DNA of 51,980 nt from an uncultured Erysipelotrichaceae bacterium. Lineage in GTDB: Bacteria; Bacillota_I; Bacilli_A; RF39; UBA660. The stretch spans positions 1 through 51,980 of the forward strand of contig CADCFX010000005.1 of NCBI GenBank assembly GCA_902800945.1. Direction: 5' to 3'. The notes under the pieces were generated by a model. That model did not search any database. It was given only the letters and a program-made list of their open reading frames with translations, and had not been told where the DNA came from. The translations under genes and the position numbers were made by a program. Below, piece after piece: positions 135-9,205 of this stretch (position 1 is its first letter; each line of letters starts with the position of its first letter).

Positions 135-3100
135 TTACCACCAAGAACAAACGCCATCCCCATCACAAACAGGGTGATTCTTTACACCGCAAGTATGCGA
201 ATTTCCCGTGGCCATATAATATGCACTATTATCACAGACCTCCCAGTCAGAGTAATATTTATTTCCATAATTTTTAGGGAAATTAGTAAGAAGAGCACCA
301 TTTGGAATATCTCCTGGAGGTAATTCATTCGTATTAAACCAGAACCAACGATAAGCACCATTCCAGTAAATATAATACCAACCATGCAATTGGCATCCTT
401 CACCAGGACACATATCCTTAGAATTATAAACAACCTTGTGAGTACTATTGCTATAATAAGTCCAGAAATAGTACCAATCAATAGTAGACGAATCATCATT
501 AATATAATATGTTCTAATATAAAACCTTAATACCCATCCTCTAGACCAATCTCTTTTCATAGTATATTGCGAACTATACAAATCAGAATTTGTAACAGGA
601 TATTTAATATGCTTATTTAAATTACAAAACGAACCAGTACATCCAGAAGCATTAACATCAACATCTATAGCGCCAAGAAGAACGGCAAATACTTTCCAAT
701 TTGTTGAATTCCCAGCTCCATCTTTGGCTTCAAGATTAAATACATAACCAGGATGGGCTCCATTAACCCGCAACCTATCATCTAGCTTATATGACCACGA
801 TGTCGTCTGTTCATTATTCTCTTTGCCAAGCTGATAATTACCATAAGTAATAGTTGTACCGCTATATCCAGAACCTCCTGTATCTGAAGCAGAAACAGAA
901 TTAATATACATTTGCGCTCCATCATTATTCGCACTATACAAATAATCAATTGAATTAATACTACCCGTTTTATTAAGAGTAAGATGGTTAAATGTAGGAG
1001 TGCATGTGCCGGCTAAATCATTTTTTATCCTTTGAATGCATGAATCTCTAGTTCCTTTCGTTAACTCATAATAACTGTTAGGGTAATTCCAAACGAAACT
1101 GCAACTGTTATTAGGCTGTAATTGACAATTCCAACTTCCAGTAGAATCCTTATAAATTGAGTTCCTATAATAATAAACCAAATTAGAAATCGTCGGAGCA
1201 ACAGTATCCCTCTTTACAGTCCTATCAGCAGGACACTGCGTACTATTTCCAGCATTATCATATACAGTCCCTGGAGATACAGCAGAACTATTCATATCGG
1301 TTTTAATAGTCCGTGTAACACTACCACTAGCATCATATGTATAATCCCCTGTATTGGCCACTTGTTTACATTTACTATGTGAATCAGTACAAGTTCCTTT
1401 TATTGTTACATTAGTATTTACCCATGAGCTACTACCACCAGAATTTGTACATGTTGGAGGAGTATTATCATATCTTACTAAAACTCCTCCAGTATTATCT
1501 GCTGCATTTTGTGCTTTATCTTTAATACTTTCTCCTTGTACCCAAATATAATAATCACCAGTCAAAGGACTACCAGATGAATATCCATTTACATCTGTAG
1601 TAAACGTCATCTTTCCATCTGTAATGGTCTTATTACTAGCATTTTTATAATTTGATATTGTTCCGCCTGTTATAGTAGTCCATTGAGTTGGAGGAGTACT
1701 ACTACTCGTCGACCATCCTACCTTGATACTATTAGCATCAGAATAGAAACCACTTCTATCATCTTGAACAGTTATATTAATAGTATGTTTCTGTTTATAT
1801 GTCCCGCAGTTATCACCACTATCGCATGTCACACTAACTGTTGGTTTATGCCAATCTACTCCAACAGATTTTAAACAATGATATATTGTTTTATCTTTTT
1901 CTAATCCTTGCAATCCCATGTAGTATTTCTTTAAATCTTTTTCACTAGTTATATCTACATAATCTGTTAATACTCCATTATTAGTATTACCATCAAAGAA
2001 CTTCGTTAACTTATTCTCTGCTGGCGGAGCACTTAATTGTCCTATAAAATATTTAACACCCATCGTTCCAATTGCTTGATTAGTAGTTCCTCTCACTCTA
2101 ACCGCTGTATTATACCATTCATATGCATTATTTAATTCTGTTTCATCTGTTTTATGTGCTTTCATCTGACAACTCTTATCAGCTGTTTCAAAATTAGATA
2201 CCGCAAGAGGTTCAGTAACCAACTCATTCCCTGCCTTATCGACAACTTTAATATAATACGTTGATTGTTCTCCATAAAAATGTGAATTATATCCAGCAAA
2301 CGAACCAGCACATTCTTCTATGCTATCTTTATTTGATTGATCATGAATAAATGGTGTCCCAGATGGGAAAGAACTATCTTTAGAACAATAGAATCCAGCC
2401 ACTCCACTACCATTCGCATCATCCAAATATAGTTTTACTTTTTTTGTAGAACCAATAGTTACATCGTTGGCAACAACTGCTCTAGCAGTTGGTACCTCTT
2501 TATCAACCCTAACTACAATCGTTCTACTATGTATTGATCCATCACTCATATTATAAGTAATTGTTACTTCACTATTAAACATTACCTGTACATCTTTAAT
2601 AGCTAGTTTATTATAATCTTCTTCATTATACACATTATCATCTACCGGTGTATTCTTTGGCTTAGTAATTGTTTGACCATCAAAATCATAACTAACACTA
2701 ACAAAGTCTGTATACACATCAGATCTAACTCTCAACACTATATCTTTATTAGTCCAAGCTGCTGTATTACCACTAATTGGAATACTTGTTTCAAGCTTGT
2801 TATTAGTTTCAGGCCACTCGAAAATAGAAACCCCAATTTGAAAATCAGCAAGCTCCTGTTCGGCAATATCACAATCTTTATTCTGCTCAGAATATTTAGC
2901 TATATAAATATCGTCCTCAATAGTTATTGTAATCAAATTACAAATCATATTATCATGGTTCAAAGGATTATTAACTTGCGCTAAACCATCAGCAGAAGAA
3001 GAATCAGGTTGCAAAAAACCTTGAGCAACCAACTTATTAACAGAAATAGTCGTACTATTCTTCAAATTTGTTTCTTTTGCAAACTTAATAGCCGCATCCT

Positions 3101-3248
3101 CTATCTCTTGCTTCTTAGATTCATAAGCCCTTTCCCTACTTCTCCTGGCCATAGAATTATATCCTGTAATCGCTGCTACAGCTAAAACAGCCATAATTGC
3201 TATTACAGCCAATAATTCAATTAGTGTAAAACCATCATTCTTTTTCAT
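135..3248 (-). CDS. Giant type IV pilin-like surface protein with Ig-like repeats
   Basis: The N-terminus is a type IV prepilin signal: a short basic leader ending at Gly6, then FTLIELLAVIAIMAVLAV with Glu at mature position 5 and a hydrophobic helix to about residue 28. Ordinary pilins have 120-200 residues; this protein has 1037. After a pilin-like segment (to about residue 150) come at least four Ig-like modules, roughly 250-345, 470-590, 595-680 and 685-855, each ending in a D-x-AGN-type motif and three opening with a P-T-type motif. The last 180 residues are rich in Trp, Tyr and Cys, with a Trp-Tyr cluster near 975 and a Cys-rich end. Family knowledge says the prepilin leader is cut by a PilD/ComC-type peptidase and the helix packs into a pilus or stays in the membrane; the modules suggest an adhesive tip. 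Function is inference. The AGGGTG ribosome binding site supports this start. Confidence 0.8.
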   Translation of the reverse strand: MKKNDGFTLIELLAVIAIMAVLAVAAITGYNSMARRSRERAYESKKQEIEDAAIKFAKETNLKNSTTISVNKLVAQGFLQPDSSSADGLAQVNNPLNHDNMICNLITITIEDDIYIAKYSEQNKDCDIAEQELADFQIGVSIFEWPETNNKLETSIPISGNTAAWTNKDIVLRVRSDVYTDFVSVSYDFDGQTITKPKNTPVDDNVYNEEDYNKLAIKDVQVMFNSEVTITYNMSDGSIHSRTIVVRVDKEVPTARAVVANDVTIGSTKKVKLYLDDANGSGVAGFYCSKDSSFPSGTPFIHDQSNKDSIEECAGSFAGYNSHFYGEQSTYYIKVVDKAGNELVTEPLAVSNFETADKSCQMKAHKTDETELNNAYEWYNTAVRVRGTTNQAIGTMGVKYFIGQLSAPPAENKLTKFFDGNTNNGVLTDYVDITSEKDLKKYYMGLQGLEKDKTIYHCLKSVGVDWHKPTVSVTCDSGDNCGTYKQKHTINITVQDDRSGFYSDANSIKVGWSTSSSTPPTQWTTITGGTISNYKNASNKTITDGKMTFTTDVNGYSSGSPLTGDYYIWVQGESIKDKAQNAADNTGGVLVRYDNTPPTCTNSGGSSSWVNTNVTIKGTCTDSHSKCKQVANTGDYTYDASGSVTRTIKTDMNSSAVSPGTVYDNAGNSTQCPADRTVKRDTVAPTISNLVYYYRNSIYKDSTGSWNCQLQPNNSCSFVWNYPNSYYELTKGTRDSCIQRIKNDLAGTCTPTFNHLTLNKTGSINSIDYLYSANNDGAQMYINSVSASDTGGSGYSGTTITYGNYQLGKENNEQTTSWSYKLDDRLRVNGAHPGYVFNLEAKDGAGNSTNWKVFAVLLGAIDVDVNASGCTGSFCNLNKHIKYPVTNSDLYSSQYTMKRDWSRGWVLRFYIRTYYINDDSSTIDWYYFWTYYSNSTHKVVYNSKDMCPGEGCQLHGWYYIYWNGAYRWFWFNTNELPPGDIPNGALLTNFPKNYGNKYYSDWEVCDNSAYYMATGNSHTCGVKNHPVCDGDGVCSWW

Positions 3249-4183: not shown

Positions 4184-5371
4184 TTATAATAATTCACTAA
4201 ATTTATTATCATCATTATCGGATATTCTTATTATATCATCATTTTTAATTGCTTCACTAATCAATGTTTCATAATCTATTAATTTTTCATATTCTTCACA
4301 CTTGTCATGCTCAGGATTAATAACGGGATGCTTAGGGACAAATATAGTGCAGCAATCCTCATACGGCTCAATACTTATATTATAAGTATCAATTTGTTCA
4401 CTAATTTTAATAATATCCAATTTATCAAAACAAGCAAGAGGTCTAATAACAGGCATTCTTACAACCTCATTAATAACCCCCATACTACTAAGAGTCTGTG
4501 AAGCCACCTGTCCAATACTTTCACCATTAATCAATATTTTGCATTTGTTTCTTCTTGCAATTCTTTCGCTTATTCTATACATCATCCTTCTCATAATAGT
4601 TATTAAATAATCATGAGGAATATTTCTATATATTGCTTCCTGTATTTTGGTAAAATTAATTACATGTAGCTTTATATCATTGTTATATAAAGCCAATCTT
4701 TTTGCCAAATTAATAACTTTATTTTTGGCTTCTATACTAGTATGAGGAGGACTTTCAAAATATAAAGCTTCTATCTTAACGCCTCTTTTAATAGCCATAT
4801 AGCCAGCCACGGGAGAATCTATCCCCCCACTTAACATCAATAAGCCCTTTCCAGCCGAAGTAACAGGATATCCACCTAATCCTTTTTCACCATTAAAATA
4901 AAAATATATAGCGTTTAATCTTATTTCTATATTAATAGTTAAATCAGGATTATGTACATCTACCTTTTTATTTTGCATGTTTTTTAGAATAATCGCCCCA
5001 ACTATTCTACTAACCTCCATCGATTCCCTCGGATATTTCTTATTGCTTCTCTTTGTAGTAACCCTAAAAGAATTAAAATTATAATCTTTAACTTTGTCTA
5101 ATACTCTTCTTCCCAATTCATCAATGTCTTCACTATAATCCATCTTAAAAACTATATTATATTCATGTATACCAGCCACATACTGTAATCTCTCTACAAC
5201 TTTGTCTATTTCTCTAGTTTTTACAAACATTCTTCCCTTATCAAACTCTATCTCAACATCATACTTATCTAATGCGAATTCCACATTCTTTTTTAACTGC
5301 TTCAAAAATAAGTTTATATTGTCTTTTTTAGTGCTTAATTCCCCATATTTAATCATTATTAACTTTTCCAT
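4184..5371 (-). CDS. thiI: tRNA 4-thiouridine synthase ThiI
   Basis: ThiI adenylates and thiolates U8 of tRNA, and in many bacteria also supplies sulfur for thiazole. The protein shows the N-terminal ferredoxin-like part, a THUMP domain, and the PP-loop LSGGIDSPVAGY about 180 residues in. Near the C-terminus lies PYEDCCTIFVP, the conserved Cys region of the short ThiI type. It lacks the C-terminal rhodanese domain of the E. coli enzyme, as in Bacillus. The chosen ATG (MEKLIMIKYGE) follows a GGTGAT site; an ATG five codons upstream has none. Partner genes for sulfur handling lie just upstream: a rhodanese lipoprotein and a NifZ-like protein, but the latter seems inactive, so the sulfur donor may be another desulfurase. 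Confidence 0.95.
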   Translation of the reverse strand: MEKLIMIKYGELSTKKDNINLFLKQLKKNVEFALDKYDVEIEFDKGRMFVKTREIDKVVERLQYVAGIHEYNIVFKMDYSEDIDELGRRVLDKVKDYNFNSFRVTTKRSNKKYPRESMEVSRIVGAIILKNMQNKKVDVHNPDLTINIEIRLNAIYFYFNGEKGLGGYPVTSAGKGLLMLSGGIDSPVAGYMAIKRGVKIEALYFESPPHTSIEAKNKVINLAKRLALYNNDIKLHVINFTKIQEAIYRNIPHDYLITIMRRMMYRISERIARRNKCKILINGESIGQVASQTLSSMGVINEVVRMPVIRPLACFDKLDIIKISEQIDTYNISIEPYEDCCTIFVPKHPVINPEHDKCEEYEKLIDYETLISEAIKNDDIIRISDNDDNKFSELL

Positions 5372-5403
5372 ACTATCACCACACATAAGTTAATCACATT
5401 TCA

Positions 5404-5431: not shown

Positions 5432-5452
5432 GAAAAAGAGATTGAATCTCTT
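5431..5452 (-). terminator. Terminator after the rhodanese gene
   Basis: A 7-bp stem (AAGAGAT with ATCTCTT, loop of three) is followed by a run of T on the minus strand. It starts at the stop codon of the rhodanese gene. Confidence 0.7.
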
Positions 5453-5822
5453 AACTACAATTATTAATACTTCCCAAATCATAAATATGCGTATAACCAG
5501 CTTCATTCAAGCTCTTCGCTGCTAGCGCACTTCTTTTCCCACTTTTACAATAAACTACTATCACAGCATCTTTATCAACAGCATAATTATCTATCTCTTC
5601 AATTATTTTAGTATAAGGAATATTTATCGCTCCTTCTAAATGGCTCTCATCATACTCTTCTTTTTCCCTTACATCAATTATTAATCCTTGATCTGCTTGT
5701 AACTCTAATGCCTTTTCACAACTAACACTTGTTATGCCCCCCGCCAATTCTTTCTTTTCAGCATTCTTACCACAACCACATAACAAAAGCATTAAACTAA
5801 AAACTATCATTATCTTTTTCAT
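5451..5822 (-). CDS. Rhodanese-domain lipoprotein
   Basis: After MKKIMIVF and a hydrophobic stretch comes LLLCGCG, a plausible lipobox, so the protein is probably lipidated and held outside the membrane. One rhodanese domain follows: DVREKEEYDESHLEGAINIP, then the active loop CKSGKR with the sulfur-carrying Cys. Rhodaneses move sulfur through a Cys persulfide. The start at 5822 has a strong AGGGAG site; an upstream in-frame start would put extra residues before the signal. It overlaps the NifZ-like gene by 26 bases, so the two are co-translated. A secreted rhodanese beside thiI is unexpected: ThiI works in the cytoplasm, so the link may be operon position only. Confidence 0.85.
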   Translation of the reverse strand: MKKIMIVFSLMLLLCGCGKNAEKKELAGGITSVSCEKALELQADQGLIIDVREKEEYDESHLEGAINIPYTKIIEEIDNYAVDKDAVIVVYCKSGKRSALAAKSLNEAGYTHIYDLGSINNCS

Positions 5823-6903
5823 AATTAATCTCCCTCTCATAATAAATATTATCAAATACTTCTAAAAAATAATCAATATCTTTATAACTCACTAACTGAG
5901 ATAAACCAATTCTAATACTCGTTAAACTCCTTAATTTATCACCATACACAGCCATAACACTAGTACTTAAATCACTATTATCATTAACATTACTTATATA
6001 TATCTCATAATCATTAATACTATCTATAATATTCTTAGTACATATATTCATTAAACTAATACTAATTATATGAGGAATACTATATTTATTATTATTAATT
6101 AATAAACCTTTATATCCTCGTAGTTTATTAATTATTCTCTCATTTAAATCTCTAACTTTCTTATCCCATTCCACTAAATAAGTCATATTTATTTCCACCA
6201 TTTTAGCTAAAGCCACTATACTAGGTAAATCAACACTATATTTATTGGTTATTTTCAAGCCTTTTCCTTTAAATACAATCCCCTTTCCTTTAATTCCATA
6301 AGCATTATCACTTATTATCATGCCTATATCTATATCTTTAAAACTAACATTTACCCTTCCAAAAGCATAACTCAAATCAGAAAATAATAAGACTTTACTA
6401 TCTTCCTGTTTAATAGACTGTTTTATACTTTTAATCGGTTGTCTAATTCCTAACTCACCATTAACATAGGAAATAAAAACCATATAAGTATGTTCATTAA
6501 TTAAATCCTTCAAATCATTTAAATCTATCAATCCCTCTTCATTATTATTAACATAGTCTATAACATACCCATTTTTTTCTAACACCCTAATAAATTCATA
6601 CATATAAGGATCTTCAAGCTTAGATACAATAATTCTATTTCTTCCACTATTATTACTATTAATAATATCCAATAATACATCATAATTTCTATCAAATCCA
6701 CTAGTCAATATTATTTCTTCTTTATTAACTCCCAATAAACTAGCGATTTCTCCCAATGAAGTACTATACAGATGATTACTCCTTATTCCTATATCATTAG
6801 AACTTGATATCCTATTATAGTATTCTAAAGAAGCCCTAGAATAAGCTTTTAAAACCTCTTCATCAACAGGTGTTGATGAAGCATAATCTAAATACACCAT
6901 CAT
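5797..6903 (-). CDS. NifZ/NifS-like protein lacking PLP lysine and catalytic cysteine
   Basis: The fold is clearly that of class V aminotransferase cysteine desulfurases: YLDYASSTPVDEEV at the start, SYVNGELGIRQPI mid-protein, and SIRIGLSQLVSYKDI near the end. Yet the key residues are gone. The His that stacks on PLP (E-H-P in the family) is Asp (LEDPYMYE); the D-x-x-Q pair is D-x-x-Y; the S-x-H-K PLP lysine motif reads SDNAYGIKGKG with no His-Lys; and the segment where the active Cys should lie (YISNVNDNSDLSTS) has no Cys. The reading frame is intact. Its place between thiI and ezrA matches Bacillus nifZ. It is probably a pseudoenzyme that keeps a scaffold or partner role, or an early decaying gene. 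ATG 6903 follows AGAGAG; the next ATG (6900) is also possible. Confidence 0.8.
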   Translation of the reverse strand: MMVYLDYASSTPVDEEVLKAYSRASLEYYNRISSSNDIGIRSNHLYSTSLGEIASLLGVNKEEIILTSGFDRNYDVLLDIINSNNSGRNRIIVSKLEDPYMYEFIRVLEKNGYVIDYVNNNEEGLIDLNDLKDLINEHTYMVFISYVNGELGIRQPIKSIKQSIKQEDSKVLLFSDLSYAFGRVNVSFKDIDIGMIISDNAYGIKGKGIVFKGKGLKITNKYSVDLPSIVALAKMVEINMTYLVEWDKKVRDLNERIINKLRGYKGLLINNNKYSIPHIISISLMNICTKNIIDSINDYEIYISNVNDNSDLSTSVMAVYGDKLRSLTSIRIGLSQLVSYKDIDYFLEVFDNIYYEREINYEKDNDSF

Positions 6904-6915
6904 TATCACTCTCTT

Positions 6916-6944
6916 CAAAAAATAAGAATGTTACCATTCTTATT
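6916..6944 (-). terminator. Terminator of ezrA
   Basis: A 10-bp stem (AATAAGAATG with CATTCTTATT, loop GTAA) followed by TTTTTT on the minus strand overlaps the ezrA stop codon. Confidence 0.85.
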
Positions 6945-8658
6945 TCAAACCATTCAATAGCTTTTCTGAAACCCCAGGCTCTATATTATTAAGAGCCCCC
7001 ATGGTAGATTCCAAAGATTTTTTATATTCTCCCTTATAGAAGAAATCTTCAGATTCTTTCAAAGCCTCATTCATCCCCTTATTAACTGTTCTATAACGAT
7101 TCCCATAAACAACCGCCATTTCAGCCATTGCAGCAGTCTTAACCACTTGATTCGCTGTATTATAAACCTTTAAAACCAAGTCCCTAGCAGTATCCACTCT
7201 TATGTTAAGAGTCTTAATACTTATAGGTTGCATATTTAACTCTCTTATCATTTCTTCAACTGCAGCTTCAGCCTCTTCTACTTGAACATAATATTTATGA
7301 GGAATAACAGGCAAATTATAAGAACTAATCTTATCTTTTCCCTTCCTCATTATTTCTGTAATCTCTACCAACTGTTCTCTGGCTCTTGACTCATCTTCTT
7401 CTAATCCGCCAAGATTATGAAGAGCCCCATCCAACTTTTCCTCAGTTCTAGACAATCTAGCGCTTAAAGCTTCCATCTCTTTACCTAACCTAGTATAAGC
7501 AAAAGATCCAGTTCTATGAGCGTTAATGATTTCATCATAATCCTTTTTTATTGCACTTACTTCTTGTTTAATTACTTCAATAACTTTCACATCATCATCA
7601 GATAAATCATAGCTATATTTTATAACATCTAATTTTCTATACAAACTATTATTTACCTTCTCAATTTTATTAGCTCTAACAATTATCTTTCTAGTATATT
7701 CGTCAAAAATCTTCTTAGCATTCTTCTCTTCGTCAAAATTAGTATATAGATTATCAAAATAATCTAATATAGTTTTTAAATCCTGAGTACTATCCTCTAC
7801 ATTCAATACATTAAGTTTATCAAAAATATCAGATATCTTTTTATTAGACTCTTCTATATTATATTCCAAATTTAAATAATCTAGATTATACCCTTCTTTT
7901 ACCATCCTATTATAAACATTTCTAATATCTTCCACCTTACTAGGTATCAAATTTTTGCCTAAAAGAATAATCGAAGGAGCTTCACCAATTATGATTTTTA
8001 AATTACCAATAATATCCGAAATCCCCTTTACTATCTTACCGACTTCTTCATAGCTATTATTCTCCATAGCTACCTCAAAAGCCGCAAATAATTTGTCTAC
8101 ATTTTCAAATTGTAATTCTAAAGAATCACTAACTTCTCTGTAATCATTTTTATTATTATTATACTTGTTTATAATTTCTCTATACTCAGTTTTTAATTTT
8201 ATAATACTATCCCTATTTTTTTCTTCAGACAAAGTAATATCCTTTATCTCATCCAGCAAAAAGTTAGTCTTAGTTTTAACATAATATATCTCCAACTCTA
8301 CTGGAGCAATCTTCTCATCCAAGGAAGAATAATCCTTATCATTAAATAAATCCTCTATTTCAATTAATTCATCAGTAATTCTAGGAACATCTTTGTCCTT
8401 AATTTCATTAAAACGTTCCTTCCAATCTTCTAGCTTTTCTTGCATTCTGTCATTATTACTTATTAACGCTTCTACTTTATGTATTTCGCTTAGTATTGCC
8501 GATGATATAATTAGATTCTTTTCTCTTTCTAAAGCATTTATTTCTCTTCTATATCTTTTCTTTTCGTTATTATTAATGATATTTAGAACTATTATCAATA
8601 TTATGATACTTACTATATAAAACGTAACTCCAGCAAGTATATAAGCTGTATGACTCAT
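6940..8658 (-). CDS. ezrA: Septation ring formation regulator EzrA
   Basis: EzrA is a membrane-anchored coiled-coil protein that binds FtsZ, prevents extra Z-rings and links FtsZ to PBP1. Here a single N-terminal membrane helix (about residues 7-28) is followed by a basic stretch and over 500 residues of charged heptad-like helix, ending in the conserved region around YRTVNKGMNEAL and the SEDFFYKGEYKKSLE motif. The length (572) fits the family (about 560-570). AGGAGG stands before the ATG. The cytoplasmic partner GpsB is encoded at 30.5 kb in this window. The neighbour order thiI-nifZ-ezrA is as in Bacillus. Confidence 0.95.
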   Translation of the reverse strand: MSHTAYILAGVTFYIVSIIILIIVLNIINNNEKKRYRREINALEREKNLIISSAILSEIHKVEALISNNDRMQEKLEDWKERFNEIKDKDVPRITDELIEIEDLFNDKDYSSLDEKIAPVELEIYYVKTKTNFLLDEIKDITLSEEKNRDSIIKLKTEYREIINKYNNNKNDYREVSDSLELQFENVDKLFAAFEVAMENNSYEEVGKIVKGISDIIGNLKIIIGEAPSIILLGKNLIPSKVEDIRNVYNRMVKEGYNLDYLNLEYNIEESNKKISDIFDKLNVLNVEDSTQDLKTILDYFDNLYTNFDEEKNAKKIFDEYTRKIIVRANKIEKVNNSLYRKLDVIKYSYDLSDDDVKVIEVIKQEVSAIKKDYDEIINAHRTGSFAYTRLGKEMEALSARLSRTEEKLDGALHNLGGLEEDESRAREQLVEITEIMRKGKDKISSYNLPVIPHKYYVQVEEAEAAVEEMIRELNMQPISIKTLNIRVDTARDLVLKVYNTANQVVKTAAMAEMAVVYGNRYRTVNKGMNEALKESEDFFYKGEYKKSLESTMGALNNIEPGVSEKLLNGLK

Positions 8659-8803: not shown

Positions 8804-9205
8804 ATGAACAAAAAAAGAGTTGTAAATTTCGCTGCCAGTGCCTTCGTGATAGCAGGATTAGTAACTGCCGGATTAACTGGAGCACATGCTTGCCATAACA
8901 CAGATCATCTACACGAATGGTGCCCAATAAACAATTATCTAGGCGCAGGGCATCAAGCTTGGATAGTAAATAATTTATATAATAACGAAGATTACCACGC
9001 CTACGTAAGTAATAATGGAAAAGTAACTTTAGAAAGGACTCCATATCTAAGGGTAGATGAAAATGGCAATACAATGATTTATAATCCTCCAGGTTCCATT
9101 TTTAAAGGAGATAAAATAGTAACAACAATAGAAACTGACGGAATAGTCATTACAAAAGGTGAAGAAATATATAGTATTATTGAACCTCCAAAGCATTCTA
9201 GATAA
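8804..9205 (+). CDS. Small secreted His/Cys-bearing protein, unknown
   Basis: A basic start (MNKKR) and a hydrophobic core lead to GAHA, a good signal peptidase I site; the mature protein would start CHNTDHLHEWC, with two Cys and three His in eleven residues. The rest (about 100 residues) is hydrophilic with beta-like patterns and no domain that I recognise. The AGAGGTGG site sits seven bases before the ATG and the gene has its own promoter, divergent from ezrA and alone in its transcript. Metal or thiol chemistry by the His/Cys cluster is a guess. An alternative reading of GAHAC as a lipobox is weak. Confidence 0.75.
   Translation: MNKKRVVNFAASAFVIAGLVTAGLTGAHACHNTDHLHEWCPINNYLGAGHQAWIVNNLYNNEDYHAYVSNNGKVTLERTPYLRVDENGNTMIYNPPGSIFKGDKIVTTIETDGIVITKGEEIYSIIEPPKHSR

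Follow-up and report, generated by a model that had tools for sequence, protein, structure and literature searches.

Inactive IscS-like proteins are already known as a kind, and the closest precedent for the protein described here, which belongs with them, is IscS of Archaeoglobus fulgidus (structures 4eb5, 4hvk and 4r5f). This natural, retained gene product has the class I desulfurase fold, its PLP lysine is replaced by aspartate, and it has been measured to have no desulfurase activity; its cysteine is kept and ligates the cluster on IscU [PMC7585200]. The PLP lysine is likewise absent from IscS1 of Methanosarcina acetivorans. NifZ of Bacillus subtilis, an active PLP enzyme with both lysine and cysteine whose gene is linked to thiI, is a specific interaction partner of ThiI [PMC8300815], and in E. 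coli IscS the residues H104, Q183, K206 and C328 are indispensable for activity [PMC9978102].

The protein analyzed here is encoded by positions 5797 to 6903 (reverse strand) of a 51,980-nucleotide stretch of DNA from an uncultured Erysipelotrichaceae bacterium (contig CADCFX010000005.1), in the following called the window. It resembles A. fulgidus IscS in its fold and in the replacement of the PLP lysine, in this case by asparagine, and the desulfurase inactivity measured there is expected here. In contrast to A. fulgidus IscS, however, its cysteine loop is lost and its gene is linked to thiI instead of iscU, and although it shares the fold and the thiI linkage with B. subtilis NifZ, it has neither the lysine nor the cysteine. 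In the literature searched, no cysteine desulfurase homolog was found from which the PLP lysine and the persulfide cysteine are both absent.

The same locus is present in four species of the genus. In all of them the gene order is ezrA, the pseudoenzyme gene, a rhodanese gene, an insert (in three of the species) and thiI, so that the linkage to thiI by which NifZ is recognized is found in each. In the window, ezrA lies at 6940..8658 (reverse strand; identified by profile match and locus comparison, and the upstream anchor of the locus in all four species) and thiI, encoding the tRNA uracil 4-sulfurtransferase, at 4184..5386 (reverse strand; TIGR00342, 2e-106). Between pseudoenzyme gene and thiI, at 5451..5822 (reverse strand), lies a gene for a rhodanese-domain lipoprotein, with an LCGC lipobox and a CKSGKR active-site loop read by eye, whose start and Shine-Dalgarno sequence are situated inside the last pseudoenzyme codons, giving an overlap of 26 nt. 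An earlier note made from the sequence had placed the pseudoenzyme gene between thiI and ezrA; this is indeed the locus, but the gene does not adjoin thiI because the rhodanese gene intervenes. The pseudoenzyme probably derives from the NifZ of the thiI locus.

Predicted fold and catalytic residues

The reading frame begins with ATG ATG at position 6903, with GAAGAGAG ahead of it, and comprises 368 codons with a single, terminal stop. The product matches Aminotran_5 (PF00266) with an E-value of 4.5e-27, which assigns it to the class V aminotransferase fold, while its scores with the NifS/IscS profiles lie far under the curated cut-offs (at best 143 bits vs 304 for PRK02948 of NCBIfam). It is similar over its full length to the sequences of the NifS, IscS and NFS1 structures (best 1ecx, E 3e-32), and its AlphaFold2 model (pLDDT 89.2, pTM 0.87) superposes on NifS/IscS with a TM of 0.88–0.89, Foldseek giving a TM of 0.89 to NifS 1ecx. 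The IscS/NifS fold is thus predicted with confidence to be kept.

The protein was aligned with IscS, NifS and NifZ proteins of the same genus. Residue numbers are those of E. coli IscS, for which we used a sequence that agrees with 16 published residue positions. The PLP lysine K206 is asparagine in all four species (SGHK to SDNA), whereas lysine is found in 84 of 84 cysteine-positive homologs, and the preceding H205 is aspartate in all four. The PLP-stacking H104 is aspartate in the window protein and D, S, E or V among the four orthologs; Q183 of the D-x-x-Q motif is tyrosine in the window protein and Y or F among the four. Nor are the phosphate contacts left: T76 is absent, the position of S203 is occupied by I, I, R and V, and H205 is lost. 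The loop 232–243 is deleted in all four species together with T243 (the missing stretch, PLIHGSGK..NDLR.GT, has 15 residues), and the loop of Cys328 is shortened and cysteine-free in all four, NVNDNS replacing TNTACSSG in the window protein. Asp180, which contacts the pyridine N1, is kept in all four, and N154 in the window protein and three orthologs.

Since all four residues that are indispensable in IscS are gone, it is nearly certain from the alignment that the protein has no desulfurase catalysis. It probably contains no PLP either; this is put more cautiously because the K206A mutant of IscS retained some PLP [PMC9978102], although in the present case the phosphate contacts are missing too. 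The earlier note had read an intact frame, a NifZ-type fold and the loss of the PLP lysine, the stacking histidine, the D-x-x-Q glutamine and the active cysteine from the sequence, and in all these points it proved right; a lysine and a cysteine at equivalent positions, which it had named as counter-evidence, were looked for in the alignment and neither is present. The case calls for caution against naming such genes cysteine desulfurases from fold and position alone.

Selection on the inactive copies and origins of the cysteine loss

In the genus, which includes Candidatus Coprovivens excrementavium, intact orthologs with the same losses were found at the same locus in three other independently assembled genomes (G014, 67% identity; G007, 65%; G010, 58%), which excludes an assembly or sequencing error or chance. 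In nine further species the NifZ-like protein has the complete set of catalytic residues, and its gene adjoins ezrA, thiI or the rhodanese gene. The pairwise dN/dS of the four dead copies is 0.25–0.34 at a dS of about 1, with a bootstrap upper bound of 0.48, and conserved residues are spread along all 368 codons. This is above the values of the active copies linked to ThiI (T-type, median 0.17), of the second NifZ-like enzyme discussed below (C-type, 0.066) and of the neighbors ThiI (0.06–0.12) and EzrA (0.04–0.08) in the genus. When neutral evolution was simulated at 0.35 substitutions per site, about 18 in-frame stops arose and never zero. Simple decay is ruled out by the intact orthologs in four species, the dN/dS values and this simulation; of the checks proposed in the earlier note, the search for the same losses in related genomes and the dN/dS test thus both gave a positive result, while the frameshifted relatives that would have pointed to decay were looked for and are absent.

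The stem branch of the dead group measures 1.58 changes per site vs 0.09 for the active group, and this long branch together with the raised dN/dS indicates that constraint was relaxed for a time, so that the dead copy first changed rapidly and then came under constraint again, though a weaker one. Most simply, the replacements of lysine by asparagine and of histidine by aspartate as well as the loop deletion would precede the split of the four species; as the losses are common to all four, selection has, by parsimony, acted on an already inactive protein. Faster evolution of ThiI was discarded as an unspecific sign of a partner change, since EzrA shows it too. Among viral contigs, no relatives were found.

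The survey was extended to 386 genomes of the family and to loci from another collection. Of the T-type copies that could be read, 84 have the catalytic cysteine and 15 do not, and thiI is present at the locus of all 15; ThiI has no C-terminal rhodanese domain and keeps the conserved Cys-Cys in all cysteine-less genomes. Eleven of the 15 copies belong to other genera (G034, G228, G325, G156, G364, G430, G279, G177 and G059–G061) and are likewise constrained, with a median dN/dS of 0.22–0.33. They share with the four dead copies the locus, the loss of the cysteine loop and the intact frames, but ten of the 11 keep the PLP lysine and all 11 keep H205, both of which are missing from the four. The cysteine-less copies therefore form a graded series with lysine in ten, arginine in G279 and asparagine in the four species, and the 11 copies of the other genera look like an earlier step on the same path. 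Throughout the 15 copies Asp180 is kept and Asn35 is lost, and Thr243 is lost in 11. Intact copies, copies without cysteine but with lysine, and copies without either thus exist within one family as natural separation-of-function variants.

The evidence on the number of origins is divided. The position of IscS Gln57 is occupied by glutamine in 84 of 84 cysteine-positive copies and by glutamate in 14 of the 15 cysteine-less ThiI-linked copies, and this shared replacement favors a single origin or convergence. The gene tree unites all 15 cysteine-less copies; a tree that keeps the genus together is nevertheless not rejected by the gene data (p-AU 0.14; 0.71). In the ThiI tree the four dead-copy species fall inside their genus (99/89), and one origin is rejected (p-AU 0.029). 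Within the genus, active and dead copies are succeeded by one and the same rhodanese gene, which favors descent in place. Two or three origins of the cysteine loss are likeliest, ahead of one loss with lateral spread.

The T-type gene of G279 (locus L271) is a separate observation in this series: it is cysteine-less, its change from PLP lysine to arginine is a separate loss of the lysine, and no C-type gene was found in this 94%-complete genome.

A second desulfurase and the possible role of the retained copy

The window genome encodes an intact NifZ-like enzyme on another contig (C27), adjoining genes for a thioredoxin and a second thioredoxin-like protein. In addition it has SufS in a SUF operon, in which the IscU/SufU-like gene seen in this genome is also located, and two IscS-like enzymes, one of them beside a ferredoxin-thioredoxin protein. 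The C27-type (C-type) enzyme is present in all four dead-copy species and was found in none of the nine active-copy species of the genus. Contamination as its source was rejected, as the divergence of these genes in the four genomes keeps step with that of ThiI and EzrA. Across the family, a second enzyme occurs in 13 of 15 cysteine-less vs 12 of 84 cysteine-positive genomes (Fisher p 7e-8, uncorrected for kinship), where, as a conservative choice, any second strong match in a cysteine-positive genome was taken to be C-type; the association comprises only one to three evolutionary events, too few to give a phylogenetically controlled test any power. The cysteine-less genomes in which no C-type gene was found are G279, mentioned above, and G325 (65% complete). 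The suggestion of the earlier note that another desulfurase serves ThiI fits these data well, and the C-type enzyme is the most likely one to feed it.

We favor the following reading, to which we assign a probability of about 0.5. The ancestor of the four species would have possessed an intact C-type desulfurase alongside the copy at the ThiI locus, and the C-type enzyme would have taken over as sulfur donor of ThiI. The ThiI-locus copy would then have lost PLP binding and the persulfide cysteine, but not its fold or its position in the gene cluster, and its sequence would have stayed under selection. As a folded, cofactor-free and probably homodimeric protein that needs no sulfur, it may support the ThiI (s4U tRNA) pathway as a partner with a structural or regulatory function, for instance by docking to ThiI. 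The role of scaffold or regulator, already considered in the earlier note, is plausible and compatible with the intact open reading frames and a dN/dS of about 0.3. Docking needs no chemistry, as in E. coli a persulfide on Cys328 is not required for IscS to bind ThiI [PMC2854127]. However, R237 and M239 of E. coli IscS rank among the residues on which ThiI binding depends most [PMC2854127] and their positions lie inside the loop deleted in the dead copies, which weakens the case for docking through a site of the E. coli type, although ThiI here has no rhodanese domain. If the retained copy does act on ThiI, tRNA-thiolation desulfurases have a structural role besides sulfur transfer. A more general version, in which first the cysteine and then PLP binding were lost independently in two or three lineages once a second desulfurase was available, and the copies were kept for a non-catalytic task in the ThiI/s4U pathway common to active NifZ, is put forward only tentatively.

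The next best explanation, though we consider it a good deal less probable than takeover with a retained partner function, is that the dead copy is a relic on its way out, made redundant by the C-type enzyme and kept solely because the rhodanese gene has its ribosome-binding site and its start within the 3' end of the dead gene and because frameshifts are prevented by polarity toward thiI. The 26-nt overlap, the long stem branch and the raised dN/dS agree with this, and most family genomes appear to carry a single NifZ type and not both, so that loss of the thiI-linked copy after the gain of a C-type enzyme may be common. Such coupling would account for the open frame, but not for amino-acid conservation. 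Four lineages show a dN/dS of about 0.3 at a dS of about 1 and have conserved residues throughout the frame, and this argues against a relic, as does the constraint on the 11 cysteine-less copies of other genera.

It is rather unlikely that the protein is an inactive subunit that tunes the C-type desulfurase in a heterodimer, in the manner of inactive LCB1, which pairs with LCB2 in serine palmitoyltransferase. LCB1, antizyme inhibitor and PDX1.2 are PLP-fold or vitamin-B6 pseudoenzymes that act through a partner, and like the window protein they are inactive enzyme homologs retained beside an active paralog. Co-occurrence with the C-type enzyme and the membership of both proteins in a homodimer-forming family speak for such a pairing. 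The loop around Thr243 of IscS reaches into the active site of the partner subunit, however, and since it is deleted in all four dead copies the site of the partner would not be completed; moreover, a consistent signature is absent from the C-type enzymes of these genomes, which differ from those elsewhere in the family by shifts at just two conservative positions.

New PLP-independent chemistry in a remodelled pocket, the other possibility raised in the earlier note, is improbable. The Asp-Asn pair at the former His-Lys (Asp199/Asn200 in the numbering of the window protein), Tyr202 and the new lysine (Lys207; GIKGKG in place of GPKGIG) are the same in all four species, but other pocket positions drift, among them those of H104 and S203, the protein has lost the phosphate contacts as well as the loops that cover the substrate, and the idea gained no positive support. 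A sulfur donor working through another lysine and cysteine can practically be dismissed, as no cysteine is conserved among the four orthologs or present in the catalytic loop and the sole nearby lysine shared with active enzymes (GPKG) is their second one, besides the PLP lysine. A role as Fe-S ligand, like that of A. fulgidus IscS, was likewise rejected because it needs the cysteine.

Expression signals and neighboring genes

A perfect 11-bp A+T-rich hairpin running into a T-run is located at 6920..6945 (reverse strand), between the ezrA stop and the Shine-Dalgarno sequence of the pseudoenzyme gene. It is kept in the four species with changes confined to the loop or beside it, and its predicted folding energy is -10.2 kcal/mol in three of them and -9.8 in G010; with only two G-C pairs it remains under the threshold of a terminator scan. 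The gap after ezrA measures 37–41 bp in the four dead-copy species vs about 60–90 bp in the active-copy species checked, most of which have a different, terminator-like hairpin and a promoter-like TTGATT...TATAAT in this place. In this gap the dead gene probably lacks its own promoter, and its expression would rely on read-through.

Some features of the neighborhood may be recorded. The rhodanese lipoprotein should be extracytoplasmic according to its lipobox, yet its gene overlaps or abuts that of a cytoplasmic NifZ homolog in dead- and active-copy species alike. On contig C43 of the window genome (locus L002, 825–2601), a gene for an IscS-like desulfurase is directly followed by that of a two-domain ferredoxin-thioredoxin protein, which is possibly its dedicated redox partner. 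Between ezrA and rpsD, 8804–9205 (forward strand) encodes a small secreted-looking protein that has no Pfam match and is poorly conserved even in the closest species. Finally, 135–3248 (reverse strand) encodes a protein of 1037 aa with an N-terminal type IV pilin methylation motif (N_methyl, 5e-8); it is far bigger than a pilin and is possibly a giant pseudopilin-anchored surface protein.
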